From Collinsella sp. An307 (GTDB lineage Bacteria; Actinomycetota; Coriobacteriia; Coriobacteriales; Coriobacteriaceae), in NCBI RefSeq assembly GCF_002161805.1, contig NZ_NFIP01000005.1, positions 124,001 to 188,000 of the forward strand: a DNA stretch of 64,000 bases. Reading direction: 5' to 3'. Each line of letters starts with the position of its first letter. The first letter of the stretch is position 1. The position numbers and the translations under genes are program-made. The notes under the pieces are model-generated. The model searched no databases and was not told the DNA's origin. It saw only the letters and a list, made by a program, of their open reading frames with translations. Below, in pieces: positions 35,251 to 50,736 of this stretch.

Positions 35251-36300
35251 ATGAGAAAGGTATTTGCTTGGGCAGGCGCATTGGCTTTGGCGGCGGCGCT
35301 CACCGCATGCAGTGGGGGAGGAGCTCCTGCACAGACAGGGCAGGGCGACACAACGTCAGCGCCTACATCTGACAGCCCGTTCGAGGCCATCATCGCCGAG
35401 GCGCAGGCAGATTTCTCGGAAACGAGTCAGAAGATTCTCGACGCGCAGGAGAAGATGTTCTCTGAGGTCGGCGAGACCTACGAGGAGTACCTCGAAAACA
35501 CCGACAAGATACAAGCTTGGTATGACCTGGCGGTGAGTGAGACCGAGGCCCTTGGCGAACGTGCCGTTTCCTATGGCCGTGAGTATTATCAGGCAGTTGT
35601 GGATAACGTTGATGTCACGGAAGACCGTGATTGGGAGCGTGCTACCGAGGACTTCTATGATGCCATTTACGACGACGCGTTCGACGATTACTACGATGCC
35701 GTGTACGACGATGCGTTTGAGGACATATACGATAAGTATTACGACGGCATAATCGCCGATGCGTACGAGACGACTCCGTATGATGAGTGGTCGGATGTCA
35801 GCGGTGACGCATACGACGCCTACTCCGACGCGCATTCAGATGTGTACGACGCCTACTCCGACGCTCATTCAGACGTGTATGACGATTACTCGGATATTCG
35901 CAGCGCGTTCTACAACAACGATTTTGATGTCGAGGGCGTGTTTGCACCCGTCGAGCTCAAGAGTGACAGCGCACCCGAGGCGGAAGAAGCCGTTGCCGAA
36001 CCCGAGGAAGAGCCGACGGACGATGCTGCCGGTGATGAGTCGACGCCGTCTGCGGATTTTAAGACCGCGATGGACGAGTATGAGGCGTTCTTCGACGAGT
36101 ACGTCGCGTTTATGCAGGCATATAATGCAGACCCCTCAGCGACGGATCTTCTTGCGCAGTACCCCGACATGATGACGCAGTATGCGGATACGATGGCCGC
36201 GATGAGCGATATTGACGCGGGGAGTTTGACGCCTGAGGACTATGCCTACTACGCCGAAGTGACCGCACGCATCACCGCAAAGCTCGCCGAAGTGGCATAG
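35251..36300 (+). CDS. Tyr/Asp-rich repeat lipoprotein (DUF6591-like C-terminus)
   Basis: A 349-residue lipoprotein: signal peptide with lipobox LTAC, lipidated Cys20. After a coiled-coil-like region comes an extremely acidic, Tyr-rich repeat zone (about 135-230), with DAIYDDAFDDYYDAVYDDAF and the near-exact tandem DVYDAYSDAHS repeated. A Glu/Pro linker then leads to a helical C-terminal domain (FKTAMDEYEAFFDEYVAFMQ) that resembles DUF6591 of Firmicute and actinobacterial lipoproteins. GGGAGG precedes ATG 35251. The acidic repeat could bind cations or wall polymers; that is speculation. Confidence 0.75.
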   Translation: MRKVFAWAGALALAAALTACSGGGAPAQTGQGDTTSAPTSDSPFEAIIAEAQADFSETSQKILDAQEKMFSEVGETYEEYLENTDKIQAWYDLAVSETEALGERAVSYGREYYQAVVDNVDVTEDRDWERATEDFYDAIYDDAFDDYYDAVYDDAFEDIYDKYYDGIIADAYETTPYDEWSDVSGDAYDAYSDAHSDVYDAYSDAHSDVYDDYSDIRSAFYNNDFDVEGVFAPVELKSDSAPEAEEAVAEPEEEPTDDAAGDESTPSADFKTAMDEYEAFFDEYVAFMQAYNADPSATDLLAQYPDMMTQYADTMAAMSDIDAGSLTPEDYAYYAEVTARITAKLAEVA

Positions 36301-36303
36301 CCG

Positions 36304-36519
36304 CTAGAAATCGATGAGGTCGCGCACCTTCACGTCGAGCGCCTGAGCGATGCGAATCAAAACGTCGATGCCAACATCAGCCGTTCCCGTCTCGATCTTC
36401 CAGAGATAGGAACGGCTGGTCCCGGTCATAAGGGCGAGTTGGCGCTGCGAGATGCCGCGCTCGGCTCGTCTCGACCGTATACGAGAGCCCAATGCCCGCT
36501 TGTCGTGCACGTTATCCAT
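36304..36519 (-). CDS. Short XRE-family regulator
   Basis: A 71-residue single-domain helix-turn-helix protein: LGSRIRSRRAERGISQRQLA, LMTGTSRSYLWKIETGTADV and LIRIAQALDVKVRDLI, a textbook XRE fold. It is divergent from the 36596 lipoprotein gene across a 76-base gap that holds a perfect 20-base palindrome. It therefore likely represses itself and/or the lipoprotein. Confidence 0.88.
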   Translation of the reverse strand: MDNVHDKRALGSRIRSRRAERGISQRQLALMTGTSRSYLWKIETGTADVGIDVLIRIAQALDVKVRDLIDF

Positions 36520-36538
36520 TTCTCTAGCGTACGTGCGC

Positions 36539-36570
36539 TATGATGCAGAGTGGCTCTCTAAAGAGAGCCA
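36539..36570 (+). promoter_or_regulatory. Promoter -10 and palindromic operator before the 36596 gene
   Basis: TATGAT at 36539-36544 is followed by the perfect palindrome TGGCTCTCTAAAGAGAGCCA (36551-36570), positioned as an operator over the start of transcription. The -35 is weak. Confidence 0.55.
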
Positions 36571-36595
36571 TCTGGTTGAACCCTAAGGAGATAGA

Positions 36596-37891
36596 GTGAG
36601 AAAAGGACGGGCATTATTCTTGGCTTTGACAAGTGTGGCACTAACGCTTTCTCTGGTCGGCTGTAGCTCTCAGGGCGAACCGGATGAGGTGACAATACAA
36701 ACTGCTGATAATGCTTTAACGGTTTCGCTCGAAGTCGAATGCAGGTCTAACCTATTTTTCAGTCGCTATGACATCGCATTTTATGTAGACGAGGAACTCC
36801 AAGAGGTCATAGACCATGGAGCGACCAAGCAGTATGAGATTGACTTGTCTGAAGGCGACCATGTGCTGAGGTTCGCCAAAGAAGGCGATAATGAGGTAGA
36901 TGGAAGCGTCGAAATAACAGTTAATGACAATATGGCTCTTAAGTGCGTTCTGGGGTGTACCTCTTCTCAAGTAGAGGTGCAGATGGTGGAGTCTATCTTC
37001 CCACCGATTGCGTCAGACGAAGCTGTTTCAATGAGCCATGATGATGTTCGAGAGGCATTTGAGCAGGCTGGATTCACGGAGATTCGTGAGGAAGAGCTAA
37101 GAGACCTTGCCCTCGACCAGGCTGACCATAACTGGCTTGTCGGGTCAATTTCAATCGATGGAGATGATTCTTTTGACAAGGAGAGCTCCTTCCTTGCCGA
37201 TGATGAAGTGCTGATTTCTTATCATGTTCTTGGCGATATAAATCCTCCTGCATCCGCCTCAGAGCTTGTCGGCCAGGATTATGAGAAAGTTGCCGAACAG
37301 TTCGCTAGCGCTGGATTTAGCAATGTAAAGACAGAACCGGCAGCATCGGCGGGTACGGTGGGGGCAGTCAGTCAAGTGACCATCGGAGGTTTTTTCGGTT
37401 CTTCAGATTTTGTGCGTGGTGACTCTTTCCCCTTTGATGAACAGGTGACCATTCAATACTACGAAGAGGACCCCGATGCTGAGACTCCCAATGCAAATGC
37501 GAATGCGAATGCTGAAGTGGAAGAGGTGCTCACCATTGACTCCTCTCCAGATTTAGCTAGCCTCCTCTCTTCGGGTGAAACCAATGCCTCTTGGTTCAGC
37601 ACAAGCTATCGCGGAAAAACGATTCAGTTTGATGGACATGTCGCGAGCTTAATGACCCATGGGGATTACTCAACCCGTTGGGATGTTTTGATCCTCGCAG
37701 GCAATAACGGAGCAAGTCCATCCCTTGGCCCCAATTTCAAACTGATTAACGTCAGCTTTTATGACATGAACGTAACTAATGCAGATACATTACGCGAGGG
37801 GCAAAACATAACGGTCACTGCTGTCGTAGGAGATTACGATTCCGCGACAGATTGGCTAGAGCTCGATCCCGTTTCAATTTCAATTAGATAG
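36596..37891 (+). CDS. Lipoprotein with PASTA-like repeats and DUF4839-like C-terminus
   Basis: A 431-residue lipoprotein starting at GTG 36596 after AAGGAG; lipobox LVGC with Cys23. An Ig-like N-terminal part is followed by two PASTA-like units (DDVREAFEQAGFTEI about 147-165 and LVGQDYEKVAEQFASAGFSN about 224-243). An Asn/Ala linker precedes a C-terminal beta domain (about 315-431; GKTIQFDGHVASLM, NITVTAVVGDY) that resembles DUF4839. Codons are less GC-biased than the neighbours, a sign of transfer. It probably faces the wall; function unknown. Confidence 0.7.
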   Translation: MRKGRALFLALTSVALTLSLVGCSSQGEPDEVTIQTADNALTVSLEVECRSNLFFSRYDIAFYVDEELQEVIDHGATKQYEIDLSEGDHVLRFAKEGDNEVDGSVEITVNDNMALKCVLGCTSSQVEVQMVESIFPPIASDEAVSMSHDDVREAFEQAGFTEIREEELRDLALDQADHNWLVGSISIDGDDSFDKESSFLADDEVLISYHVLGDINPPASASELVGQDYEKVAEQFASAGFSNVKTEPAASAGTVGAVSQVTIGGFFGSSDFVRGDSFPFDEQVTIQYYEEDPDAETPNANANANAEVEEVLTIDSSPDLASLLSSGETNASWFSTSYRGKTIQFDGHVASLMTHGDYSTRWDVLILAGNNGASPSLGPNFKLINVSFYDMNVTNADTLREGQNITVTAVVGDYDSATDWLELDPVSISIR

Positions 37892-37928
37892 CAGCAGGCC
37901 CTTTTATCTCGATGATTGGAAGCACCAA

Positions 37929-38627
37929 GTGTTTTGTACTAAATGCGGGAAGCAGTTGAATGATGACGATCGATTTTGCCCCAGTTGTGGCAAATCGACT
38001 GGTATGTTGGCGCCGGACGGAGCAGGAGCAAGGCGAGAGCAATGGGAGGGGACCGTATTCAAGTGTCCGTGTTGCGGCCAGGTGCTCGATGCGTTCTCCG
38101 TCGTCTGTCCTTCGTGCGGCTTCGAGCTTCGTGATGCGAAAGCGACAACATCGCTAAGCGTTTTATCGCTGAAGCTGCAGGAAATTACGGCACACGCTGA
38201 TAAGGGGGTAAAACAAACATTACTTGAAAGGCTCCGGCGCGACACGTCGGATGTCGACGATCGGGCAGCGGCTTTGATCAAGGCTTTTCCCATACCTAAC
38301 ACCAAGGAAGATCTTATCGAATTCATCATCGCATCTGCTGCAAATATCAACATAGATGCGTTCAATGAGATGAAGAGGGGTAATTTATCCTCTTCTGAGA
38401 TTGCGATGTCCAATGCATGGTTATCAAAACTTGAGCAGGCCTATCGGAAGGCGTCAATCGTCCTTGATGGTGAGGCATCGTTTGCTAAAGCGAAAGAGAT
38501 GTATGTCAGTACGATGAAAAAAGTATCATCGGCTAGGCATGCGATTATCCGTTTTTGGATCGCTCTTGGACTCGTATGGGTGGGAATCATCCTTTTCTGC
38601 CTTTTGATGGCGACCGTGAATTCTTAG
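37929..38627 (+). CDS. Double zinc-ribbon protein with C-terminal membrane anchor
   Basis: A 232-residue protein with GTG start 37929. Four CxxC knuckles give two zinc ribbons: FCTKCGKQL with RFCPSCGKS, and FKCPCCGQV with VVCPSCGFEL. A helical region follows, then one transmembrane span (WIALGLVWVGIILFCLLMAT). The ribbons face the cytoplasm. The SPFH gene begins 15 bases after the stop, so this heads a five-gene set. Zinc-ribbon proteins often accompany SPFH proteins and may act as adaptors. Confidence 0.75.
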   Translation: MFCTKCGKQLNDDDRFCPSCGKSTGMLAPDGAGARREQWEGTVFKCPCCGQVLDAFSVVCPSCGFELRDAKATTSLSVLSLKLQEITAHADKGVKQTLLERLRRDTSDVDDRAAALIKAFPIPNTKEDLIEFIIASAANINIDAFNEMKRGNLSSSEIAMSNAWLSKLEQAYRKASIVLDGEASFAKAKEMYVSTMKKVSSARHAIIRFWIALGLVWVGIILFCLLMATVNS

Positions 38628-38642
38628 GAAAAGTGAGATGTA

Positions 38643-40022
38643 ATGAGTGCTTTTAACAAGAATGCCGGCGGTTTCATGGATGAGATCCGCTGCGACGAAC
38701 CGAGCTACCTCATCTGGAAGTGGCGCCCGGCGGGCTCGCAGAAGGGCGCGAACCGCCGAGAGAACGCCATCCGCTGGGGCTCTTCGTTGCGCGTGCGCGA
38801 TGGGGCGGTCGCCGCGTTCGTCTACCACCAGAAGGACGGCACCTACCAGGACTTTATCGAGGGTCCCTACGACCAGATTCTCAAGACGGCCAACCTACCG
38901 GTTCTTGCCAGCATCGTCGGCCTCGCCTACGACGGCGGCACTCCCTTCCAGGCCGAGGTCTACTTCATCAACCTCGCTCAGGTGGTACAGATCCGCTTCG
39001 GTGTACCGTTCTTCGATGTTTATGATCCACGTTTTCTCGATTTTGGCGTTCCCGTGGCAGTGCGCGGGACGGTGACGTTTGCCATTAAGGACTACCGTCA
39101 GTTCATCAAACTGCACAGACTCGACGAATTCGATCTTGAGACATTTAAGAGTCAGGTGAAAGATGCGATTAGGCGTTATTTGAAAGGCGCAGTCGCCAAC
39201 GCCCCTACGGACCTTGGCATTCCGCTCGTCCAGATCGAGCGCGGCCTCGCCAAGATCCACGACGCCGTGGAGCCCCAGGTCAAGGAGCGCCTCTCGAGAG
39301 ACTTCGGCGTCGCGGTGTCCGGGGTGGACATCTCCGCCATCGAACTCGACAAGACGAGCGACGGCTACCGTCGGCTCATGTCCGTGACGCGCGATGTCGA
39401 GCAGGCGACCGTCCAAGCTCAGACCGAGGTCAACATCAAGAACCTCCACGACCAGCAGCGCATCAACGCCGAGAACCTCGAGGAGACCCTTCGTATTCAG
39501 CGCGAGGAGGCCCAGCGCGCCCAGCGCATGACCACCGAGACCGCCAACATCGGCGCATTCCAGCTCGAGAAGCAGGCCGAGGTGGGTGTCGCCGGCGCCA
39601 GCGCGCTCGGCCAGATGGGCGCCAACGGTGCGACCGAGATGGGGGCCGGTTCCGGCGGCGGGTTCGATCCGGCTGCGATGATGGCCGGCATGGCCGTCGG
39701 CGGCGCCGTGGGCCAGAACGTCGCGGGAATGATGAACGGCATGATGGGCGGGCTCGGCGGCCAGCCGGCGCAGCCCGGCGCCCAGGTTCCGCCCCCGGTC
39801 CCTCAGGCCGGCTACCACGTGGCCGTGAACGGCGCCGCGAGCGGGCCCTTCTCGCCCGCGATTCTCGCCCAGATGGTCGCTGCAGGCGCGCTCACACGTG
39901 ACAGCCTCGTCTGGAAGCAGGGGATGGCCGAGTGGCGCCGCGCCGGGGACGTCGACGAGCTCGCTTCCGTTTTCGGGGGCGAAGCACCCGCCGGCATGGC
40001 ACCGATTCCGCCAGCCGTCTAA
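38643..40022 (+). CDS. SPFH-domain (virion core-like) protein with GYF_2 domain
   Basis: A 459-residue protein of the bacterial SPFH/virion-core family: IWKWRPAGSQKGANRRENAI and YHQKDGTYQDFIEGPYDQIL at the N-terminus, then the SPFH beta-sheet and long helix (about 120-320, rich in Glu/Gln/Arg). A Gly/Met linker leads to a GYF_2-type domain (about 395-450; YHVAVNGAASGPFSPAILAQ, DSLVWKQGMAEWRRAGDVDE). SPFH proteins form membrane-bound cages or microdomains; the GYF_2 domain suggests partner binding. It is the hub of the five-gene set. Confidence 0.85.
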   Translation: MSAFNKNAGGFMDEIRCDEPSYLIWKWRPAGSQKGANRRENAIRWGSSLRVRDGAVAAFVYHQKDGTYQDFIEGPYDQILKTANLPVLASIVGLAYDGGTPFQAEVYFINLAQVVQIRFGVPFFDVYDPRFLDFGVPVAVRGTVTFAIKDYRQFIKLHRLDEFDLETFKSQVKDAIRRYLKGAVANAPTDLGIPLVQIERGLAKIHDAVEPQVKERLSRDFGVAVSGVDISAIELDKTSDGYRRLMSVTRDVEQATVQAQTEVNIKNLHDQQRINAENLEETLRIQREEAQRAQRMTTETANIGAFQLEKQAEVGVAGASALGQMGANGATEMGAGSGGGFDPAAMMAGMAVGGAVGQNVAGMMNGMMGGLGGQPAQPGAQVPPPVPQAGYHVAVNGAASGPFSPAILAQMVAAGALTRDSLVWKQGMAEWRRAGDVDELASVFGGEAPAGMAPIPPAV

Positions 40023-40032
40023 GGGGGAGACC

Positions 40033-40404
40033 ATGGACGAGAGCAGCTTCTACTCTATTGACCGTCTCGTAGAGTTTGGTCTTACGCTTGGCGTGGCAAC
40101 GCAGATGGCTAACTCCATGAATGCGGGCCTCCAGGCCATGCGGATGCCCGGGGCGAGAAACCCCATGCAGCCCAACGCGCTTGCGGAGGACCAGCCTCTC
40201 TTCTACGTGGTTCTCGACGGCAAGTCTGTGGGCCCGCTCGCCACCTCCGAGCTCTCACGCTTCATCGCCGAGAAGCGCGTGACCAAGGAGACCTACGTTT
40301 GGAAGCCGGGGATGCAAAATTGGCAGCTTGCGGAAAACGTGCCGGAAGTATTGCGTCTTGTTGCAATGACCCCGCCTCCGGTTCCTACCATGGGAGATGA
40401 ATAA
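40033..40404 (+). CDS. GYF_2-domain small protein
   Basis: A 123-residue protein with ATG 40033 after GGGGGAGA. An N-terminal helix (LVEFGLTLGVATQMANSMNA) is followed by the GYF_2-type domain LFYVVLDGKSVGPLATSELS with ETYVWKPGMQNWQLAENVPE. The domain is the same type as the C-terminus of the SPFH protein, 10 bases upstream, so the two may share a partner or oligomerise. No catalytic motif. Confidence 0.8.
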   Translation: MDESSFYSIDRLVEFGLTLGVATQMANSMNAGLQAMRMPGARNPMQPNALAEDQPLFYVVLDGKSVGPLATSELSRFIAEKRVTKETYVWKPGMQNWQLAENVPEVLRLVAMTPPPVPTMGDE

Positions 40405-40427
40405 CGGAAGATCCATATCTACCTCAG

Positions 40428-41960
40428 ATGCTTGGTCTTGTGTTGCAGAAAGAATGGTGTAGGAGTTTGTCCAACAGAAATGGTTCGCTCAAGCCAAACG
40501 TGAATGAAGAAATCCGTATTCCTGCGGAAGCGGCGGGAAGAGGCGTTGGCGCAGAGCAAATTGTTAACCATCTTTATGACCAAGAAAAGTTCCATGCTTG
40601 GCAGGGGCATGGGTTTGCCGCCGAGCAGGCAAATAATCTTCACGATAAACTGTTGGGCAAAGATGCTCGCATTCTTGGGGATGATTGCGCCAAAAACGGT
40701 CCCGATCGCATAGTTAACGGGCGGTGGATTCAGTCAAAATACTATGCAAATGGGCGTAATGCGATTAATGCATGTTTTGAAGACGCCGGTAAAGGAGCTT
40801 TCAGATACGTTGGCAAGCATGGTGAGCCGATGGTCATAGAAGTGCCGAAAGACGACATTATCTATGAGCAGGCGCTCAAAGCCATGCGTGAGAAGATTGC
40901 CAAAGGCCAGGTTGACGGAGTCAATGATCCTGCTCAAGCGGAAACCCTGGTAAAGCGGGGTAACTACACGTATCAGCAGGCAAGGAACATCGCGAAAGCG
41001 GGCAATATCGATTCGCTGAAATACGATGCGACTAATGGCGCGGTTACCGCCGCTTCCGCTTTCGGCGTAAGCGCTGTAATTGCTTTTGGAACCTGTATCT
41101 GGTGTGGTGACAAGCCAGAGGTGGCGGCAAAGAAGGCCGCCTTTTGTGGTCTCAAGGTCGGAGGCACATCTTTCATTGTTTCTGTTATATCTAGCCAGTT
41201 GTTGAAAGCGGGACTAAACAGCGCAATGGTTTCCAGCACGGAGGCGATAGCTACGGCGCTCGGTCCCAAGGCGTGCGCAGTTATAATCAATGCGTTTAGG
41301 ACTGGCTCCAACATATACGGCGCTGCTGCAATGAGGAGTGCTGCAAAGTTACTTCGCGGTAATGTGGTGGTCGCCGGGCTTACCGTTGTCGTTCTCTCGT
41401 CCTTCGATATAGCTGACATCGTTCGCGGCAGGATATCTCCTGGCCAGCTTGCGAAGAATCTTGCTGAGACGCTTTCGTCTGTAGCAGGAGGAACTGCTGG
41501 ATGGGTGGGGGGTGCCGCTCTTGGTTCCATGGTGCTTCCGGGAGTGGGAACGGTTGTTGGAGGGGTGGTAGGTTCCCTGGGAGGTGGCGCTGTAGCGGGT
41601 GTTGCGGCAAGCGCCTTGGCGGGACTGTTCATCAAAGATGACGCAGAGCAGATGTGCGCCCTCATAGAAGAGCGGATTGGGCTGGTGACGGTTGAATATC
41701 TTATGAGCGAGGACGAGGTTAAGAAGCTTGTCAATTCTGTCAGCCGCCGTCTGGATGGGAGCGCTCTCAAGGACATGTACGCATCTTCTGACAGACCTGC
41801 TTATGTCTCAGAATTCATAAAAAGTGATGTCGGTGAAATCGTATCCGAGAGATCTCATATAGCGGGTGACATTGACAGTCAGATTGCGGATGGTCTCGTA
41901 AGGCTCTTGGAGGAATCGACTGAAAAGGAAAAGAATGATGGATGTGAAGGGCTTGCTTAA
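40428..41960 (+). CDS. Glycine-zipper membrane protein of the SPFH cluster
   Basis: A 510-residue protein. The N-terminal region has FHAWQGHGFAAEQANNLHDK and LGDDCAKNGPDRIVNG, and TYQQARNIAKAGNIDSLKYD follows, segments I recall from an uncharacterised enterobacterial family. The middle has hydrophobic helices (about 200-330) and then a glycine zipper (about 361-398; LPGVGTVVGGVVGSLGGGAV) typical of proteins that insert in or permeabilise membranes. The start at 40428 has no strong ribosome site and may lie downstream. Codons are less GC-biased than the core genes. Function is unknown. Confidence 0.7.
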   Translation: MLGLVLQKEWCRSLSNRNGSLKPNVNEEIRIPAEAAGRGVGAEQIVNHLYDQEKFHAWQGHGFAAEQANNLHDKLLGKDARILGDDCAKNGPDRIVNGRWIQSKYYANGRNAINACFEDAGKGAFRYVGKHGEPMVIEVPKDDIIYEQALKAMREKIAKGQVDGVNDPAQAETLVKRGNYTYQQARNIAKAGNIDSLKYDATNGAVTAASAFGVSAVIAFGTCIWCGDKPEVAAKKAAFCGLKVGGTSFIVSVISSQLLKAGLNSAMVSSTEAIATALGPKACAVIINAFRTGSNIYGAAAMRSAAKLLRGNVVVAGLTVVVLSSFDIADIVRGRISPGQLAKNLAETLSSVAGGTAGWVGGAALGSMVLPGVGTVVGGVVGSLGGGAVAGVAASALAGLFIKDDAEQMCALIEERIGLVTVEYLMSEDEVKKLVNSVSRRLDGSALKDMYASSDRPAYVSEFIKSDVGEIVSERSHIAGDIDSQIADGLVRLLEESTEKEKNDGCEGLA

Positions 41961-42324
41961 GAGGGCTGCTGACGACTATGCGCCTGCACTTGGTGAGTTG
42001 AATTCTGAAGTTAATCAGAAGGCATTTGCAAAAGGTTCCGCCTTTTCTGAAGTAAGAGTTACCAACAGCAGCCCTTATAAGACCGTACGGGATGCAATGA
42101 TAGATGAGGGCGACGTATTGCTCGACGATGAGGATGGCGGAACGGTGCTTGCCATGATAAAGGGAGGGCTTGGCGGAATGGCACCGGTGCTCCTTGCCGC
42201 TGTTGTATCTTCAGAAGGGGTGATCTCGATTGGTGCCTATTCCAAAGAGGGTCTCATTCCCCAGCATGCATCGCAGCGCGCCATCGATTCTTTCGAGAAA
42301 CGTCTGAGGGATTTCTCAAACTGA
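41935..42324 (+). CDS. Small protein overlapping the glycine-zipper gene
   Basis: A 129-residue protein starting at ATG 41935 (or 41938), with AAAGGAAAAG upstream, overlapping the previous gene by 26 bases. The N-terminal half is mixed charged; residues ~75-95 (GLGGMAPVLLAAVVSSEGVI) are hydrophobic. I recognise no family. The overlap implies coupled translation with the glycine-zipper protein, so it may be its chaperone or immunity partner; that is inference. Confidence 0.65.
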   Translation: MMDVKGLLKRAADDYAPALGELNSEVNQKAFAKGSAFSEVRVTNSSPYKTVRDAMIDEGDVLLDDEDGGTVLAMIKGGLGGMAPVLLAAVVSSEGVISIGAYSKEGLIPQHASQRAIDSFEKRLRDFSN

Positions 42325-42697
42325 ACAGACGAGTACGTGTTTCGAGATGCGCTTTTTATAGCCATAAAGACTCTTGTCATGCCGCGATACCGCCCTTTAT
42401 ATCGGAGGTTGGAAACATATACTGTTCCTTGATATTCGGGAAATCGTGCCCGCTGAGCCTCCTGTGCAGATGCGGCTCTCCTCTCAAACGAAGCGGATCT
42501 ATCTGCGTTAGGGCGAACAGAAGGTGTTTCGCGCAGAAGAAGTTGCGATATCGTCGCGCTAATCGTTGGAAGATAGATTCGCATTGTTGAAAGCAGTCTA
42601 CTTGTGAGCCACTTCCCCTAAACTTAACGTGAGGGGAGTGAAGCGAAGTTCGCTTTCCTTGCGAAGCCAGAAGGGGAAGCGAGCGTAGGGGGCGCTT
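42325..42697. other. Gene-free gap after the SPFH cluster
   Basis: About 370 bases, AT-richer than the neighbours. A minus-strand frame (42237-42584) has no ribosome site and an implausible sequence. A small hairpin GAAGCGAA / TTCGCTTTC occurs near 42642-42660. I see no gene, tRNA or array. Confidence 0.5.
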
Positions 42698-43639
42698 ATG
42701 TACGAGGACGAGAACCGCGATTTAGGTCCGGCTGCAGAGTATGCCGAGGCAACGTATGCAACGGAGCTTGCTGCAGGCCCCGACCCCATGGCGTTCATGG
42801 TTCGCTACAAGTTCGTGGTAATCGCCATCTTGGTGGTCGTTGCGCTCGTTTCGGCGTTGCCTTTGCGTGCCGTTTTCACCACGCCCGATACCTATGCTCC
42901 CACCATCGCAACCATCGACGAGAAGAAGGCAACGGTGCTCGGTCTCACGGCTGCAGCTGCGGGCGCTTCGGCGGCGATCACGGCTATTCCCGATGACGTG
43001 GGAACGCCTGTTGCGGATAACCTGATGGATCTCTGCTCCAACTTCACGATTGTGCTTGTGGCCCTCTACCTCGAGAAATACCTGCTCACCATTTTTGGCT
43101 TCACTACGTTTGCCGTGCTCATCCCCGTGGCATGCGCCCTCTTTGCGGCGTCGCTGCTGCTCTTCCGCAGCCGCGGCGGCGCGGTGTGCGCACACATCGC
43201 GCGCAAGCTTTTGGCGCTCGGCGTCGTGCTCATGCTTGCCGTGCCGGTTAGCGTCTTTGTGACCGATATGATCGACACCACCTACGAGACGTCTGCCGAG
43301 ATCACCGGCGAGCAGGCGGACGAGGCCTCCGAGGCAGATACGGAGGAGGGCGACGGCAACGTGCTCGATTACCTTCTGAGCATTCCCGGCGCTGTGGTGG
43401 ACGGTTTAACGTCGGTCTCCGATGAGCTTCTCAACCAGGTGAACCGTCTCATCGAGTGGTTTGCCGTTATGGTGGTCACCTCGTGTGTGATTCCTATCCT
43501 CGTGCTCGTCTTCTTCCTTTGGATGGCAAATCTCATCCTGGGGATTAACATCGACGTTCCCATGAATGCGCTCAAGGCGCGGGGGAGTCGGCTCAAGCAG
43601 ATGCCGGCTAAGGCCATGAAGTCTTCGCGCAAGGGATAA
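42698..43639 (+). CDS. Polytopic membrane protein of unknown function
   Basis: A 313-residue protein with about five hydrophobic spans, roughly residues 37-58, 110-130, 135-155, 168-188 and 250-282, and an acidic loop (EQADEASEADTEEGDGN) before the last span. The end is basic (SRLKQMPAKAMKSSRKG). Weak GGGGGC precedes ATG 42698. I recognise no family. It stands alone and its stop is 27 bases from the convergent transporter gene. Confidence 0.65.
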   Translation: MYEDENRDLGPAAEYAEATYATELAAGPDPMAFMVRYKFVVIAILVVVALVSALPLRAVFTTPDTYAPTIATIDEKKATVLGLTAAAAGASAAITAIPDDVGTPVADNLMDLCSNFTIVLVALYLEKYLLTIFGFTTFAVLIPVACALFAASLLLFRSRGGAVCAHIARKLLALGVVLMLAVPVSVFVTDMIDTTYETSAEITGEQADEASEADTEEGDGNVLDYLLSIPGAVVDGLTSVSDELLNQVNRLIEWFAVMVVTSCVIPILVLVFFLWMANLILGINIDVPMNALKARGSRLKQMPAKAMKSSRKG

Positions 43640-43665
43640 CCATTACGTGCCGTTGCGACGAATAC

Positions 43666-44895
43666 CTACTTCTGTGCGCTGCGCTTGCGATCGAGAGCGT
43701 ATGTGACGCCCGTGAGCACCCAGGCAACGAGGGAGAACGCCGCTCCCACAAGGCCTACCTGAGCGAGGCCCATGCCGCCTACCACGGCGCCGCCCACCGC
43801 GGTGCCAAAGGCGATGCCGGTATTGAATGCGGTGGGTTCGAGCGAGCTCGCGAGCGTGAGCGCTTTGGGGTGCCAGCGCTGTGCATCCTTCATAAAGACG
43901 GAGATGCAGGGCACCGACACAATATACATGGTGAGGGCAAGGGCGAGTATCGCGGCGATGGCGGGAGCGGTGGCGCTTCCCAAAAGCCAGATGAGGGCAA
44001 GCATGGCTGCCTGGACGGGGAAGCTCGCCATAAGCGCGCGTAGCCCAAAGCGCGCATCTGCCCAACCCGAGATAAGGTTTGAGAAGAAGCACATCACACC
44101 GTATGCCATGAGCACGGTACTTGCACCGAGAGCGTCGAGGCCAACGACCTCCTCCAGATAAGGCGTGATGTAGCCGTAGAGCACATACACCGATCCCACG
44201 CCAAAGACAAAGATGAGCGCGCCGGTTATGACCTGCGGCTCGGTAAGGAGCGATGCCTGTTCGCCCATGGTGGCGGGCTCGTCGGTCGCACCTGAGCGCG
44301 GCAGCGCCACCAGGAGCGCAAGCGACGTGGCGAGCGCAAGCACAAGCGAGGCCACCATGACAAGGTGCCAGTCAAACGCGTGGGCGATCATCTTGCCCGC
44401 CGAGGTGATGAGGACCATTGCCACAGAGAACGCGGCGTAAACCACCGAGATGGTCATGGAGGTGCGCTCGACGCCCGCCAGCTCGGGAATGTAGGTGACA
44501 CCGAGCGCGAGCAAAGCTCCCGAGACGGCGCCCAGAAGCACACGCGACGCGAGCAGAATCTCAAACGTGGGCGCGAACGTCATGGCAAGGTTCGCCAGAC
44601 AGAAGAGAACGGTGTAGGCCACAAGCAGGGGGAACCTGCGGAAACGCCCGGTGGTGATGGCGAGCGTGGGCGTGAGCACCGCATAGGCGACCGAGAAGAA
44701 GCTGATGAGCTCGCCCACGCGCGAGAGGCTCACCCCAAAGGATGCGGCGAGTTCGCTCTCGATGCCAATGACCACAAACTCCGAGCAGCCGAGCGAGAAT
44801 CCGAGCACCACAAGCAAAGCGACGCAGAGGCGCGCGCGTGCGGGCGAGTGCACGTCGGTCTCATGCGGACGGTCGGTACCTTTCAACTCTTGCAT
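43666..44895 (-). CDS. MFS transporter, DHA1-type
   Basis: A 409-residue, twelve-span major facilitator. VVLGFSLGCSEFVVIGIESE and ASFGVSLSRVGELISFFSVA open the first helices, and the motif A-like loop TGRFRRFPLLVAY follows helix 2; LASRVLLGAVSGALLALGVT is the helix 4-5 region of DHA1 drug and nucleoside exporters such as AraJ or PbuE. Likely a proton-driven exporter of small molecules; the substrate is unknown. Transcribed alone, convergent with the preceding membrane protein. Confidence 0.85.
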   Translation of the reverse strand: MQELKGTDRPHETDVHSPARARLCVALLVVLGFSLGCSEFVVIGIESELAASFGVSLSRVGELISFFSVAYAVLTPTLAITTGRFRRFPLLVAYTVLFCLANLAMTFAPTFEILLASRVLLGAVSGALLALGVTYIPELAGVERTSMTISVVYAAFSVAMVLITSAGKMIAHAFDWHLVMVASLVLALATSLALLVALPRSGATDEPATMGEQASLLTEPQVITGALIFVFGVGSVYVLYGYITPYLEEVVGLDALGASTVLMAYGVMCFFSNLISGWADARFGLRALMASFPVQAAMLALIWLLGSATAPAIAAILALALTMYIVSVPCISVFMKDAQRWHPKALTLASSLEPTAFNTGIAFGTAVGGAVVGGMGLAQVGLVGAAFSLVAWVLTGVTYALDRKRSAQK

Positions 44896-45104
44896 CGCTT
44901 CCCCCTAAGAATCTAAGCTTGACGATTGTAGCAGCCATGGTGCGACGCGGCGTGACCGGGCGGCTACCTTTGGGTAAAGCATCGGCATAGATGCCGTAAG
45001 GAAACGGTCTTGATTGCTCGCTGACGGCCGTGGCGGTCTGTGCGCTTGTTACCGTCGAGAAGATAATGCCCGGCAACAGGCAAACGCGTGTGAGGAGGAC
45101 CGCC

Positions 45105-45704
45105 ATGGATGAAGACAAGAATGAGGATATGCAGAGCGCAAACGATCGCTCTGCGGAAGATGGCCCCATCGCGCTGCCGCTTCCGTGGGGAAAGATCTCT
45201 CTTGTCGCCATTCTCATCTTAGTGGCTGCCGTTGGTTTCTTCTTTCTCATGCAGCGTGCAAGGGGCAACTTCGTCATGGGAACGATCGGTGTGGTTGCCC
45301 AGTATTTCGTAGCGGTGGTGTTTATCTTGCTGGCGGGCTTTCTGGCCCTTCCGGTGGTGGCGGGCATCCGCTCCCTGTCCCATATCGCCGGACGCATCGC
45401 CGCAGCGCTTGCAGCGCTTGTCATCACGGCGGTCTTCGCGTGGATCTTCCTTGCGGCGCCTATTCTTGACATCCCTCACCTTTCGAGCCCGTCGGTGACA
45501 AGGCTCACCGAGGTCGAAGTGGAGGTGGATGACAGTTACGAGTCGTCGACTTTCTACAAGCTCCAGGGCACCGACGCCGAGGGTAACCTGCAGATCTTTG
45601 ACGTCGATCGCGCGGTCTTTGACGCTTGGGACCCCGAGGTAGACGAGGTCACGGTGACCTATCTCCCGCATACTGAAACGGTGCTCTCCCTCGTGTGCTC
45701 ATAA
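45105..45704 (+). CDS. Three-span membrane protein with C-terminal soluble domain
   Basis: A 199-residue protein with ATG 45105 after GAGGAGGA. An acidic N-terminus precedes three hydrophobic spans (about 28-47, 60-85 and 95-118). A ~75-residue beta-rich domain follows (VEVEVDDSYESSTFYKLQGT, VTVTYLPHTETVLSLV). I recognise no family; the C-terminal strand pattern is like domains that follow membrane anchors in stress proteins. A small hairpin AAGACG / CGTCTT lies at its stop. Confidence 0.65.
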   Translation: MDEDKNEDMQSANDRSAEDGPIALPLPWGKISLVAILILVAAVGFFFLMQRARGNFVMGTIGVVAQYFVAVVFILLAGFLALPVVAGIRSLSHIAGRIAAALAALVITAVFAWIFLAAPILDIPHLSSPSVTRLTEVEVEVDDSYESSTFYKLQGTDAEGNLQIFDVDRAVFDAWDPEVDEVTVTYLPHTETVLSLVCS

Positions 45705-45882
45705 GACGCCTCGTTTATACGTCTTGCGGAGTTGATGCGTTGCCTTTGCGAGCTCGCCCAACCGTCGGGCCATTGTCTTAAACCAGATATTGAGGCACCC
45801 TATGTGACCGGGCGCGCATGGGATAATCAATCTATCTGTGCCGCCGTCAACAAGGCGGCAGACCTGCTGCAAAGGAGATGCC

Positions 45883-47436
45883 ATGTACCAAGAGAACGCC
45901 ATCTGGATGGGTGTGGGCGCGGAGCCTGACAACAAGCACGTGAACCTGCTGCTCAACCAGGCGAACCGCCACGGCCTTATCGCCGGTGCCTCTGGTACAG
46001 GCAAGACCGTTACGCTCAAGGTTATGGCCGAGGGCTTCTCTAAGGCGGGCGTTCCGGTGTTTATGGCCGACGTCAAGGGCGACATCACCGGTATGGCGCA
46101 GGCAGGCAAGGACTCCGAGGACATGCAGGAGCGTATCAAGCGCTTTGGCATCGAGGGTTTCACCTACGCGGGCTGCCCCGTGCGCATCTGGGATATGCTC
46201 GGCGGCGCTGGTCTGCCGGTGCGTATCACCATCTCCGACATGGGCCCGTCGTTGCTTTCGCGCCTGCTCGAGCTTACCGAGGTGCAGGAGGGCGTGCTCG
46301 ACATCGTCTTCCGCATCGCCGATGACAAGAACCTCCTTTTGATCGACCTCAAGGACCTGCGCGCCATGCTCAACTTCGTGGCCGAGCACGCCGACGAGTA
46401 CGAGACCACCTACGGCAAGGTCTCCGCCCAGTCGGTGGGCGCGATTCTGCGCACTCTGATCTCGGTCGAGGACCAGGGCGGTGACGTTTTCTTTGGCGAG
46501 CCGGCGCTCGACCTCAACGATTGGTTCCAGTGTGCCGAGAACGGCCAGGGCTACGTTAACATCCTGAACGCCGCAAAGCTCATCCAGAGCCCGCAGATCT
46601 ACGCCATGTTCCTCCTGTGGATGCTCTCCGAGCTCTTTGACACCCTGCCCGAGGAGGGCGACCTCGACAAGCCCAAGTTCGTCTTCTTCTTTGACGAGGC
46701 GCATCTTCTGTTCAACGACATGCCGACCGAGTTCCTCGACAAGATCGTGCAGGTCGTGAAGCTCATCCGCTCCAAGGGTGTGGGTGTGTATTTCATCACG
46801 CAGAGCCCTTCCGACATTCCCGACGAGGTGCTCGCGCAGCTCTCCAACCGCATCCAGCACGGTCTTCGCGCCTACACGCCCGCCGAGCAGAAGGCGGTGC
46901 GCGCCGCCGCGCAGTCGTTCCGCGAGAACCCCGCCTTCAAGAGCGAAGACGTTATCCTCGAGCTCGGCACCGGTGAGGCGCTCGTTTCCTTCCTGAACGA
47001 GGACGGCCAGCCCGAGATCGTCGAGCGCGCCAAGATCCTCCCGCCGCAGTGCCTCATGGCCGCCGCCTCTGACGACGTGATGAAGGAGGCCCTCTCCGCG
47101 CAGGATGAGCTCATGAAGAAGTACGGCGAGGCCGTCGACCGCGAGAGCGCCGAGGAGCAGATCGAGGAGCTCGAGGAGGAAGAGGAGAAGGCCGCCAAGG
47201 AGGAAGAGGAGCGCAAAAAGCGCGAGGAAGAAAAGGCCATGAAGGAGAAGGCCAAGGCCAAGGCTGCCGAGAAGGCCGCGATTCGCGCCGAGGAGCGCAA
47301 GATCCGCCAGCGCGAGAAGCAGCAGGAGCAGATGATGAAGGGCATCGGCAAGATTGCAAGCCGGGTGCTGGGCTCCTTTGGTCGCGAGGCCACGCGCCAG
47401 ATCACGCGCAACCTGTTTGGTGGGCGTCGCCGCTAG
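45883..47436 (+). CDS. HerA-like ATPase, DUF853/YjgR family
   Basis: A 517-residue cytoplasmic ATPase of the HerA-FtsK superfamily. Walker A is GASGTGKTVTLKVMAEGF (about 36-44), FMADVKGDITGMAQAG follows, and Walker B is FVFFFDEAHLLFND. The arginine finger region and GVYFITQSPSDIPDEVLAQL are typical of YjgR. The C-terminal ~100 residues form a highly charged coiled coil ending in RQITRNLFGGRRR. AAAGGAGA precedes ATG 45883. Role in the cell is unclear; HerA relatives act in DNA processing. It is convergent with the GNAT gene. Confidence 0.88.
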   Translation: MYQENAIWMGVGAEPDNKHVNLLLNQANRHGLIAGASGTGKTVTLKVMAEGFSKAGVPVFMADVKGDITGMAQAGKDSEDMQERIKRFGIEGFTYAGCPVRIWDMLGGAGLPVRITISDMGPSLLSRLLELTEVQEGVLDIVFRIADDKNLLLIDLKDLRAMLNFVAEHADEYETTYGKVSAQSVGAILRTLISVEDQGGDVFFGEPALDLNDWFQCAENGQGYVNILNAAKLIQSPQIYAMFLLWMLSELFDTLPEEGDLDKPKFVFFFDEAHLLFNDMPTEFLDKIVQVVKLIRSKGVGVYFITQSPSDIPDEVLAQLSNRIQHGLRAYTPAEQKAVRAAAQSFRENPAFKSEDVILELGTGEALVSFLNEDGQPEIVERAKILPPQCLMAAASDDVMKEALSAQDELMKKYGEAVDRESAEEQIEELEEEEEKAAKEEEERKKREEEKAMKEKAKAKAAEKAAIRAEERKIRQREKQQEQMMKGIGKIASRVLGSFGREATRQITRNLFGGRRR

Positions 47437-47468
47437 TTTTGGGCGCGCTGCGGTGCTTGGCGCGCGGC

Positions 47469-47605
47469 TCAAGTCGTTTATGAGCGTAATCGCGTGCCAA
47501 CCACGTTGCTACGAGTGTGGCTAAACAAGTTTATCTGCGAAAACCCACCCTGTACCATGTGGGGTACAGGGCGGGTTCTCAGCTTTACGCTCATAAGCGA
47601 CTTGA
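47469..47605. repeat. 137-bp inverted-repeat element with internal terminator hairpin
   Basis: Terminal arms 47469-47489 and 47585-47605 are 21-base inverted repeats with one mismatch (ends CAAGTCG / CGACTTG). The centre holds a hairpin CCCTGTACC / GGTACAGGG (47548-47571), with A-rich and T-ending flanks. It sits between convergent genes, so it may be a two-way terminator or a small non-coding mobile element. Confidence 0.8.
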
Positions 47606-47671
47606 ACGTTCTGGCGCCCAGTCGGGATGGAGCGCTGTGACGATGGGGCGCGGGGCGGGTTGCGTGGCGCC

Positions 47672-47965
47672 CTAGGCGACGAGTTCGGCCCACTCGGGGT
47701 GACGCTCGAACCAGCTCACGGCATACGAGCACGTGGGGCGCGCCTTGCGATGGGTTTCCTTTAGCTCGCGTGCCGCCTGCTCGAGGAGCATGCCTGCGAT
47801 GCCCTGACCGCGGAGCGACTCATCCACAAACGTGTGGTTGATCTCCACGGTACCCGGCTCGCGATCGGGGAAAGTGACCTCGGCGAGGGTGGTTCCGTCG
47901 GGGGCGACGTAGCGAATGGCGTGGGAGTGGACCTCAATCTGGTTTTCGGGGGCCTTCTTAGTCAT
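47672..47965 (-). CDS. GNAT-fold N-acetyltransferase (YjdJ/NATD1-type)
   Basis: A 97-residue mini-GNAT. IRYVAPDGTTLAEVTFPD, then VEINHTFVDESLRGQGIAGM carries the acetyl-CoA loop R-G-Q-G-I-A, and KARPTCSYAVSWFERHPEW is the typical end of NATD1/YjdJ. GAAAGGCG precedes ATG 47965; the longer frame to 48118 is upstream sequence. Acceptor unknown. Confidence 0.85.
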   Translation of the reverse strand: MTKKAPENQIEVHSHAIRYVAPDGTTLAEVTFPDREPGTVEINHTFVDESLRGQGIAGMLLEQAARELKETHRKARPTCSYAVSWFERHPEWAELVA

Positions 47966-48177
47966 GGCTCGCCTTTCTGTTGGTTCGCGCCTGGGGCGCG
48001 CGGCTTTACGCGTGGTGCATCCATCGTGTACCCACGGCAGCGCGCGAGCCACATCGCATTCGCTTTGCAACGCATCGGTAACAGAGGGGTTACGCCCGGG
48101 AAACGCAAGCGGTACCATGAGGCGGTAAACGGTATCTGCGAGCAGCGCGTGGGCAGCGCAATCGATTCGGCAGGTTG

Positions 48178-50736
48178 ATGACTATGGCTTCAACACGCAA
48201 GGCGTACGTTCAGCCAACTCATATCCAGGTGCGCGGCGCACGCGTGCATAACCTAAAGAACATCGATGTGGATATCCCCCTCGGTTGCCTCACGGGGATC
48301 GCGGGCGTGTCGGGGTCGGGCAAAAGCTCGCTTGCGCTCGGCACGCTCTACGCCGAGGGCAGCCGCCGCTATCTCGATGCGCTTTCTACCTACACGCGGC
48401 GCCGTATTGCGAGCGTGGGCCGTGCGACGGTTGACGAGGTGCTCCACGTGCCCGCCGCGCTCGCGCTGCGCCAGCGTCCCGGCATACCCGGCGTCCACTC
48501 CACATTTGGCACCTCGACCGAGCTTCTCAACTACCTGCGCCTCATGTTCTCGCGCCTCGGCAGCCACCAGTGCCCGCATTGCGGCGCGCACGTTCCGCCG
48601 AGCATGGATGTCGCGCTTATGATTCCCACTCGCTGCCCGGAGTGTGGCCAGGAGTTCATGGGGCCGGGTGCCGAGGACCTCGCTTTTAACAGCGGAGGCG
48701 CCTGCCCTACGTGTGGCGGCACGGGTATCGTGCGCACGGTGGACGAGTCGACGCTTGTGCCCGACGAGTCGCTTTCCATTGAGGAGGGCGCTGTTGCATC
48801 GTGGCAACAACTCATGTGGAAGCTCATGCGCGACATCGCGCGCGAGATGGGCGTCCGCACCGATGTGCCCTTCTCGGAGCTCACGCCCCGCGAACGAGAG
48901 ATTGTCTTCCACGGCCCCGCCGAGAAGCACCACATGTTCTATCAGAGCTCCAAGACCGGTGACGTGGGCGAGATGGACTTCACCTACTTCAACGCGGTCT
49001 ATACGGTCGAGAACGCCCTCTCCAAGGTGAAAGACGAGAAGGGCCTGGCGCGCCTAGCGAAATTCCTCAAAGAGGAGGTGTGCCCAGACTGCGGCGGCAC
49101 GCGCCTTTCTGCGCGCGCTCGGGGCTCCATCATCGACGGCATGAACCTGGGCGATGTGGCGCGCATGACGCTCGACGAGCTTGAGGTGTGGGTGGGGACC
49201 GTGCCCGCGCTCATGCCCGAGGCAATGGTGCCCATGGCGCGCGCCATCGTGGCCGAGATGGCCGAGCCCATTTGCCGCCTGAAGCAGCTCGGCCTCGGCT
49301 ACCTCGCCCTCGACCGCGCAAGTTCCACCCTCTCTACCGGCGAGCGCCAGCGCGTGCAGCTTGCCCGCGCCGTGCGCAACCGCACGTGCGGCGTGCTCTA
49401 CGTGCTCGACGAGCCCTCCATTGGCCTGCACCCCTCCAATGTAGAGGGACTGCTCGGCGTGGTGGACGACCTTTTGGGCGATGGCAACTCGGTGGTGCTC
49501 GTCGACCACGATGTGCGGGTTCTGCGCCATGCCGATCATCTGGTGGAGATTGGTCCCGGCTCGGGCGAGGCCGGCGGGCGCGTGATTGCCGAGGGCAGTG
49601 TGGCCGACGTGGTGGCACATCCCGCCACGCGCATAGGGCCGTTTCTCTCGGGCGAGCGGCGCGTTCGCGTGCGCACGCGCACGGCGGCGGATGCGGTGTT
49701 TGCCGAGGGGTCCATCGACCTTGAGACGGGTGCCATCCATACCGTGAAACCCCTTGACGTGCGGATCCCGCGCGGACGCCTCACCGCGGTGACGGGCGTG
49801 TCAGGCTCGGGCAAGACCACGCTCGTGCTCGAGAGCCTCATCCCTGCGCTCAAGGCATCCATCGCGGGCGAGGCGCTGCCCGGGCACGTGAAGCGTGTCG
49901 AGGCGGCGGGTATCCGCCGCGCGAACCTCATCGACGCTACGCCTATTGGCGCCAACGTTCGCTCGACGGTCGCCACCTATTCGGGCGTGCTCGACGATTT
50001 GCGCCGCGTCTTTGCAAAGCTGCCCGAGGCGCGCGAACGCGGCCTCAAGGCGGGGGCGTTTTCCTACAACACCGGGTCGCTCCGCTGCCCCACGTGTGAC
50101 GGAACCGGGCAGATCTCGCTCGACGTGCAGTTTCTGCCCGATGTAGACATCCCCTGTCCGGACTGCGGCGGGGCGCGCTTTGGACGCGACGCCTACGCCA
50201 TCAAGCTCGGCGGCGACCTGAGCCTGCCGGAGCTTCTCTCCTATACGGTCGACCAAGCGCGCGAGGCGCTCGCCGATACGGGCCTGCGTTCGGCGCTCGG
50301 CAAGCTCAAGATCCTTTCCGAGCTGGGGCTCGGCTACCTCACGCTCGGCGAGGCAACGCCGGCGCTCTCGGGCGGCGAGGCGCAGCGCCTCAAGCTTGCA
50401 AGCGAACTCACGCGCGACCAGGCAGACGCCCTCTTTGTGTTTGACGAGCCCACCATCGGCCTGCATCCGCTCGACGTGGAGGTGCTGCTCGGCGTGCTCG
50501 AGCGCTTGATTGACCATGGGGCGACGATTGTGGTTATCGAGCACGACCTCGACATGATTGCCAACGCCGATTACGTGATCGACCTCGGTCCCGGCGGCGG
50601 CGAGGCGGGCGGACGCATCGTTGCCGCGGGCACGCCCGATCAGGTCGCGCGCGAGCCCGAGAGCGTGACGGGCCGCTACATTGCTGAGGAGTTATCTGGC
50701 GAGGGCTGGTGCGGCGCCTCAGTTCCGCTATCCTAG
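48178..50736 (+). CDS. UvrA2-like ABC excinuclease ATPase
   Basis: An 852-residue tandem ABC ATPase. Two Walker A loops (GVSGSGKSSL about residue 41, GVSGSGKTTL about 542), two signature motifs (STLSTGERQRVQLARAVRNR, PALSGGEAQRLKLASELTRD) and several zinc knuckles (CPHC/CPEC, CPTCGGTG, CPDCGG, CPTCDGTG) match UvrA. It is about 90 residues shorter than housekeeping UvrA, fitting the UvrA2 class that lacks most of the UvrB-binding domain. Such proteins bind DNA and are linked to drug or damage resistance. ATG 48178 or 48184 is the likely start. Confidence 0.88.
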   Translation: MTMASTRKAYVQPTHIQVRGARVHNLKNIDVDIPLGCLTGIAGVSGSGKSSLALGTLYAEGSRRYLDALSTYTRRRIASVGRATVDEVLHVPAALALRQRPGIPGVHSTFGTSTELLNYLRLMFSRLGSHQCPHCGAHVPPSMDVALMIPTRCPECGQEFMGPGAEDLAFNSGGACPTCGGTGIVRTVDESTLVPDESLSIEEGAVASWQQLMWKLMRDIAREMGVRTDVPFSELTPREREIVFHGPAEKHHMFYQSSKTGDVGEMDFTYFNAVYTVENALSKVKDEKGLARLAKFLKEEVCPDCGGTRLSARARGSIIDGMNLGDVARMTLDELEVWVGTVPALMPEAMVPMARAIVAEMAEPICRLKQLGLGYLALDRASSTLSTGERQRVQLARAVRNRTCGVLYVLDEPSIGLHPSNVEGLLGVVDDLLGDGNSVVLVDHDVRVLRHADHLVEIGPGSGEAGGRVIAEGSVADVVAHPATRIGPFLSGERRVRVRTRTAADAVFAEGSIDLETGAIHTVKPLDVRIPRGRLTAVTGVSGSGKTTLVLESLIPALKASIAGEALPGHVKRVEAAGIRRANLIDATPIGANVRSTVATYSGVLDDLRRVFAKLPEARERGLKAGAFSYNTGSLRCPTCDGTGQISLDVQFLPDVDIPCPDCGGARFGRDAYAIKLGGDLSLPELLSYTVDQAREALADTGLRSALGKLKILSELGLGYLTLGEATPALSGGEAQRLKLASELTRDQADALFVFDEPTIGLHPLDVEVLLGVLERLIDHGATIVVIEHDLDMIANADYVIDLGPGGGEAGGRIVAAGTPDQVAREPESVTGRYIAEELSGEGWCGASVPLS

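Follow-up and report, generated by a model that had tools for sequence, protein, structure and literature searches.

Positions 37929–42324 of the DNA analysed here (the window; 64,000 nucleotides of Collinsella sp. An307, contig NZ_NFIP01000005.1, positions 124,001 to 188,000) hold a run of five closely spaced genes, the fourth of which encodes a 510-residue protein of the YeeR family. This protein combines a predicted PD-(D/E)XK nuclease-like domain with a glycine-zipper region that is likely inserted into the membrane, and with its 129-residue partner it lies on a cassette that appears separable from the three genes in front of it. All five open reading frames (ORFs) reported in an earlier sequence-based reading of the window (the first-pass annotation) are present where it placed them, except that the start of the stand-alone GYF gene is moved from 39898, a mechanical ORF start, to the likely ATG at 40033, which is preceded by a GGGGGAG ribosome-binding stretch. 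Successive genes are separated by 15, 10 and 23 bp, and a 26-bp overlap joins the final pair.

37929..38627, + strand: core gene 1, double zinc-ribbon protein (ZnR; Zn_Ribbon_1, 5.8e-12) with one C-terminal transmembrane (TM) segment, residues 209–227; similar to YdjG in layout
38643..40022, + strand: core gene 2, SPFH protein (Band_7_1, 5.8e-21) with a C-terminal GYF_2 domain (4.6e-19)
40033..40404, + strand: core gene 3, stand-alone GYF_2 protein of 123 residues (GYF_2, 2.5e-15) with the tail TPPPVP
40350..42686, no strand assigned: cassette, the stretch without a counterpart in the same-genus relative G002
40428..41960, + strand: YeeR-family protein of 510 residues (homology, invariant residues, fold comparison, hydrophobic segments)
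40581..41033, + strand: PD-(D/E)XK-like domain of the 510-residue protein, residues 52–202 (conserved residues, structure model, VIA-align)
41043..41621, + strand: five predicted hydrophobic segments of the same protein, residues 206–398 (hydropathy), with a GxxxG glycine zipper at residues 354–391
41935..42324, + strand: 129-residue partner protein (adjacent homologues at other loci, C4 cluster)

The 510-residue protein matched no Pfam or NCBIfam family; the Pfam matches to Mur_ligase, DUF1269 and RTX were weak or under the cut-off and were discarded. The first-pass annotation had recognised its glycine zipper and had overlooked its most informative feature, the nuclease-like domain. This domain (residues 52–202) is the most conserved part of the family, with a mean column identity of 66%, and E66, D93, Q102 and K104 are invariant in all 40 homologues compared, within the motifs GHGFAAE ... 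NGADRIVDG..IQSKYC. These residues conform to the PD-(D/E)XK signature, in which an acidic residue on a strand is combined with (D/E/Q)xK and often with an earlier Glu. The domain was modelled alone because the whole-protein Foldseek search gave nothing significant, and its model (pLDDT 87, pTM 0.83) contains a predicted alpha-beta-beta-beta-alpha-beta core (H9–24, E29–31, E43–45, E48–52, helices, E85–88, H92–107). When this model was compared with known structures in VIA-align, most of the first 33 rows were PD-(D/E)XK proteins or their relatives at Z scores of 3.6–5.5, including YaeQ, CdiA-CT, Hjc, AF1548, EcoT38I, MspJI, N.BspD6I and XisH, as well as Can2, VRR_NUC, I-Ssp6803I, HindIII, LmuA, SPARDA and TseT. 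The comparison made with the whole-protein model likewise ranked Hjc, I-Ssp6803I and TseT. Single Z values of this size are weak, so the case is built on the agreement across unrelated families together with the invariant residues. On the strength of these models, the N-terminal domain very probably has a PD-(D/E)XK fold, with E66, D93, Q102 and K104 as the predicted active site, and we infer, with less assurance, that the protein is probably an active nuclease. Hjc, YaeQ, VRR_NUC, Can2 and LmuA share the predicted fold order and the E, D, Q-x-K signature with the domain, but no significant sequence match connects them to it, and the domain of the 510-residue protein is fused to a hydrophobic glycine-zipper region.

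That region (residues 206–398) contains five hydrophobic segments, and a motif count places the GxxxG steps at residues 354–391. Membrane insertion of the protein seems likely, in line with the membrane-inserting glycine-zipper effector of the first-pass annotation. PADLOC matches to LeoB/LeoBC (down to 8e-9) were set aside as probable effects of glycine-zipper composition, since the match in the window does not extend beyond the zipper and the tail that follows; matches to phage tape-measure PHROGs were likewise set aside as likely zipper composition.

Homologues of the 510-residue protein were found at 41 loci in genome contigs of Coriobacteria, Bacillota, one Synergistales genome and Gammaproteobacteria, and also on a Lactococcus plasmid, on a Selenomonas plasmid, in one Oscillospirales phage and in six viral contigs. 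As a rule there is one copy per genome (20 genomes searched whole). The homologue in Escherichia coli is YeeR of the CP4-44 prophage (yeeR, b2001), of which other E. coli have full-length forms; similarity of the YeeR family to the 510-residue protein extends over the domain and the membrane region (32.9% identity, 97% coverage, E 2e-46), and some E. coli copies carry the RefSeq label 'YeeR family protein'. Full-length yeeR (840 residues; L051 8939–11461) is present in 1780 of 5426 complete E. coli genomes, counted as places that cover at least 80% of the 840-residue gene. The K-12 copy (L055 8780–10312) has kept the nuclease-like domain and lost the membrane half; a published study likewise describes it as truncated and reports co-transcription of yeeR, flu and irmA (PMC6480617). 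YeeR of E. coli and the 510-residue protein have the same nuclease-like domain and glycine-zipper C-terminus, but the former carries an additional N-terminal region of ∼350 residues with TM segments and is located between Ag43 and irmA, whereas the latter is without this region and has other neighbours. The extra region and the Ag43/irmA surroundings mark an E. coli subgroup and not the whole family, and the Ag43 neighbourhood is confined to Enterobacteriaceae among the loci examined. A literature search retrieved no functional study of YeeR.

The 129-residue partner has an adjacent homologue in Coriobacteria and at four Lachnospiraceae loci, and it could be an antitoxin, an immunity protein or a cofactor. 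Many homologues of the 510-residue protein carry an extra N-terminal domain, which corresponds to the N-terminal part of BnzA in ten of them (best 1e-23) and to zinc ribbons in a few; in a Neobacillus homologue (L030 7281–9398), a TerD domain is fused at the N-terminus (4e-48). Recurrent neighbours are a WYL regulator (∼10 loci), the small protein encoded downstream (seven distinct genomes) and a TerB-like protein (four loci), some homologues adjoin a Sel1-repeat protein, and many are single genes. On the Lactococcus plasmid, the YeeR-type gene is followed by one (L050 8953–9810) whose product has the BnzA N-terminal domain at its own C-terminus, and an Abi family gene lies ∼5 kb beyond it. 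At another locus, a GTPase gene (MMR_HSR1/DUF697; L042 6671–7825) is found directly upstream of the YeeR-type gene, an arrangement reminiscent of enterobacteria, where a GTPase gene precedes the Ag43-type gene and yeeR.

In Olsenella (L009/L137), a predicted prophage contains the gene pair, with tail genes on one side of it and a large serine integrase on the other. Other homologues neighbour an integrase (L142) or tail genes (L139) or follow an endolysin (L054); in L139 and L142 we called the genes ourselves from the ORFs. Prophage accessory genes typically occupy such places, and many of these genes act against other phages. The carriage of homologues on mobile elements fits the defence-like role that had been proposed for the cluster from its sequence. 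PADLOC, at a threshold of 1e-8, matched 171 models among the 146 proteins nearest the homologues, including components of BREX, Gabija, Mokosh, DRT and restriction-modification systems, and 87 models among 136 control proteins, which were drawn from 20 regions of these contigs, one region holding a Dnd system; in this comparison the models overlap and the two protein sets differ in make-up. The only clear difference between neighbours and controls was in WYL regulators (10 proteins versus none in the listed control families).

Two systems, one a PADLOC candidate and the other an anti-phage system, show partial resemblance to the 510-residue protein or its homologues. PDC-M09B, a PADLOC candidate, has a similar order of motifs (HGF.AE, D, IQ.K) and a membrane region, and PADLOC matches to it reach 3e-6 in family members, the match of the 510-residue protein itself being weak (E 0.0054). 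PDC-M09B looks like a distant relative with a similar layout. However, the glycine-rich membrane-protein neighbour of PDC-M09B is not seen in the window, and no other PDC-M09 component was detected among the window proteins at 36596–43639. With its weak match and no partner component, the 510-residue protein was not assigned to PDC-M09, on which our literature search found no paper. A candidate PDC-M09B gene with the glycine-rich membrane-protein neighbour was observed in a Coriobacteria genome (L116 1498–4310). The second is the anti-phage system Bunzi (BnzA, BnzB), which is listed among TerB-domain systems (PMC10952713). Several homologues carry the BnzA N-terminal domain as a fusion, the gene beside one homologue has it too, and TerB-like genes adjoin some others. 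Membership in Bunzi was nevertheless rejected, as the 510-residue protein is without the BnzA N-terminal domain and no window protein matches BnzA or BnzB.

The borders of the cassette became apparent in a blastn comparison of the window with the corresponding locus of G002 (L066). Positions 36300–40349 align at 89% and positions 42687–48250 at 92–96%, and the middle part is unaligned; because the alignment ends at 40349 and restarts at 42687, the cassette was defined as 40350–42686. In G002, the DUF4839, ZnR, SPFH and GYF proteins and the 313-residue membrane protein TM313 are conserved at 84–96% identity around a different gene in the slot. The same pattern of swapping is seen between G034 and G015, with shared genes again further on. 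The gene for the 510-residue protein was not found in G002, G015, G034 or any of the 8 same-genus genomes searched, and its closest homologues (77–81% identical, including a copy on a predicted prophage) belong to other genera. These three observations (the break in the alignment, the absence from all 8 same-genus genomes and the close homologues in other genera) bear out the earlier suggestion of a transferred module made up of the last two genes. A search for flanking repeats at the cassette borders gave short two-copy matches only, with no clear insertion signature, and between the GYF gene and the cassette no terminator or promoter was detected beyond chance-level matches.

The genes that flank the cluster are:

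36304..36519, − strand: XRE-type helix-turn-helix (HTH) regulator of 71 residues (HTH_3, 1.2e-14), divergent from the cluster
36596..37891, + strand: DUF4839 lipoprotein (DUF4839, 4.5e-30), first gene of the directon
42698..43639, + strand: TM313, membrane protein of 313 residues at the right border of the variable slot (same-place homologues in L066, L067 and L068)

The cluster starts further upstream than the first-pass annotation had placed it, since the DUF4839 gene, 37 bp upstream of the ZnR gene in the same orientation, and the divergent HTH gene had been missed. The DUF4839 gene adjoins the core only sometimes (homologues in L066, L067, L080 and L108), and homologues of the HTH gene (57–99% identical) are found beside other core loci and also in related slots without the core. 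The region 36304–42698 (also L106–L112) is a variable chromosomal slot of this bacterial family, located between a DUF6591/HTH border and a TM313/MFS border; in related genomes that have no SPFH core there, GIY-YIG-like cargo accompanies DUF4230 or DUF4839 genes. The MFS transporter at 43666–44895 is closest to models of Cmx/CmrA chloramphenicol efflux proteins, with a score well below their cut-offs. The third-position GC content (GC3) is 0.50 and 0.51 in the genes for the 510- and 129-residue proteins, 0.82 in the SPFH gene, 0.72 in the GYF gene, 0.53 in the ZnR gene and 0.46 in the DUF4839 gene. The less GC-biased codons that had been noted in the last two genes are thus real, but the contrast holds only with the SPFH and GYF genes. 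Because the GC3 of the ZnR and DUF4839 genes is as low, the cluster is a mosaic rather than three native genes joined to two foreign ones.

The three genes in front of the cassette form a unit of their own. A search of 398 class genomes found good homologues of the SPFH protein in 12, counting the genome of the window itself, with a patchy distribution over three families. In most of these 12 genomes the ZnR, SPFH-GYF and GYF genes are adjacent (the ZnR gene adjoining the SPFH gene and the stand-alone GYF gene directly 3′ of it), and the same HTH gene is often divergent. In the 11 other genomes with the core, the downstream genes differ or are missing: behind the GYF gene there is a GIY-YIG-like protein in G002, a 444-residue protein and a GIY-YIG-like protein in G034, a bPH-SHOCT protein and a RelBE-like pair in G015, a small inverted gene and a GIY-YIG-like protein in G367, proteins of 103 residues, Fic type and 509 residues in G312, and a LOR-domain protein in G242. 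The remaining genomes have nothing clear behind the GYF gene, or a degraded copy of the core; in one degraded core (L080 5910–7551) a single TAG lies within the SPFH gene and the GYF gene is shortened. The GIY-YIG assignment is a reading of motifs only, with no Pfam match and with the usual catalytic Arg not evident in the alignment. This family (L066 6973–7773) has a hydrophobic N-terminal half and occurs in 41 of the 398 genomes, mostly away from the SPFH core.

Conversely, searches with the core proteins found no SPFH or GYF genes in more than 40 loci of 510-residue homologues, and a ZnR-like gene (37% identical, 4e-42) was found upstream of such a homologue in one Acetatifactor locus (L013). 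The first-pass annotation had treated the five genes as one device. As a conserved set this unit was rejected: the full set was found in this genome only, which is the outcome that the first-pass annotation had itself named as refuting its proposal, and the core and the 510-residue family each occur without the other. We are therefore confident that the locus comprises two separable modules, module A (ZnR, SPFH-GYF and GYF) and module B (the cassette with the 510- and 129-residue proteins).

GYF domains bind proline-rich peptides. In the SPFH protein, a PPPVP motif closely precedes the GYF domain and the tail is proline-rich, reading PPIPP in most homologues; the stand-alone GYF protein has TPPPVP or a similar sequence at its end in most homologues. 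A PPxP motif is absent from all 40 sequences of the 510-residue family. Since conserved PPxP motifs are found in both GYF proteins but not in the 510-residue family, the binding partner of each GYF protein is probably the other one rather than the nuclease-like protein. The shared partner that had been suggested from the presence of the same domain in both neighbours would then probably be the GYF pair itself. Module A also resembles the PspA-ydjGHI operon of Bacillus subtilis in pairing an SPFH Band_7_1 protein with a zinc-ribbon TM protein; YdjG carries a zinc ribbon. In that operon, the SPFH protein is encoded beside membrane proteins needed for its localisation, YdjG and YdjH (PMC8581546). 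Module A differs from it in having GYF_2 domains instead, and no PspA match was found among the window proteins at 35251–44895.

In the explanation that we propose, module A would be a membrane-scaffold operon with the layout of YdjG/YdjI in PspA-ydjGHI, without PspA, and its GYF domains would hold it together through the PPxP motifs of its own linkers and tails. Module B would be a horizontally acquired cassette in the variable slot behind it. The C-terminal helices and glycine zipper may anchor or oligomerise the 510-residue protein in the inner membrane, so that the cytosolic PD-(D/E)XK-like domain (E66, D93, Q102-x-K104) would cut nucleic acid near the membrane. The N-terminal accessory domain of homologues (BnzA-N, TerD or zinc ribbon) may sense a trigger; the 510-residue protein has no such domain, and the 129-residue protein may control its activity. 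Incoming DNA would be cut at the membrane, or the infected cell would be killed. Taken as a whole, the reading of the protein as a YeeR-family membrane-tethered nuclease carried on mobile elements, here beside a separate scaffold operon, is in our estimate evenly poised between right and wrong. The role of module B in phage defence or superinfection control, together with its trigger, is put forward a little more tentatively.

Several observations weigh against this explanation. Foldseek returned no hit at E <= 0.001 for the whole protein or, against the PDB, for the domain alone, every PD-(D/E)XK match in VIA-align has Z < 6, and no nuclease family of Pfam or NCBIfam matches the 510-residue protein. 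In hhalign the connection with PDC-M09B is a weak one, with a probability of 24% and E 8e-4. The membrane topology is derived from hydropathy, and residues 294–401 were modelled with low confidence. PADLOC matches near the homologues are not clearly richer than in the 20 control regions, the joint transcription of yeeR with flu and irmA (PMC6480617) is also compatible with a role in the envelope, and no experiment on the function of any family member was found.

The link to Ag43 and irmA in E. coli, with the joint transcription and the glycine-zipper membrane region, might suggest an envelope- or adhesion-related membrane protein with a non-catalytic nuclease-like fold. However, a dead fold would not need four active-site residues that are invariant across phyla, K-12 dropped the membrane half yet retained the nuclease-like domain, and the Ag43 neighbourhood is limited to Enterobacteriaceae loci among those examined, so we consider this rather unlikely. 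Doubtful to a similar degree is a toxin-antitoxin pair that mobile elements keep for their own stability, with the 510-residue protein as a membrane-active or nucleolytic toxin and the 129-residue protein as its antitoxin. The overlap of the two genes, the location of homologues on prophage, plasmids and islands, and the small partner that comes next in 7 distinct genomes are all in line with it. Yet most homologues are without the small partner, or have a WYL, TerB-like or Sel1-repeat protein instead, and many are single genes, from which an obligate antitoxin should not be absent so often.

The remaining alternatives concern the two modules together. Tight spacing and the repeated swapping of cargo make a working link between modules A and B conceivable, although we think it unlikely. 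A broader version of this idea, in which the core serves as a membrane chassis, sensing or localising an attack and driving effectors that are exchanged between strains (a membrane-tethered PD-(D/E)XK protein here, GIY-YIG-like, Fic, bPH-SHOCT and LOR-domain proteins elsewhere), would amount to a modular, previously undescribed membrane-based immune system; it strikes us as quite improbable. Least probable is a single five-gene membrane-integrity system in which the SPFH-GYF scaffold and the glycine-zipper effector act together. The common orientation with gaps of 10–23 bp, the lack of a terminator-like site between the GYF gene and the gene for the 510-residue protein, and the ZnR homologue in L013 speak for it, but the core and the cassette are separable, the full set is confined to this genome, and the 510-residue family offers no PPxP motif to the GYF domains.

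In summary, YeeR was already known, by name only; what is new here is the model-based recognition of a predicted PD-(D/E)XK-type protein in membrane-tethered form. The family is present in a third of complete E. coli genomes, in prophages and on plasmids; it has no Pfam or NCBIfam model, yet retains an apparent nuclease active site coupled to a glycine-zipper membrane region. The truncation of the K-12 copy could explain why work on K-12 would have missed the function of yeeR. If our explanation is true, the family would represent a widespread membrane-tethered nuclease, and a long-known and unexplained gene, yeeR, would gain a function.

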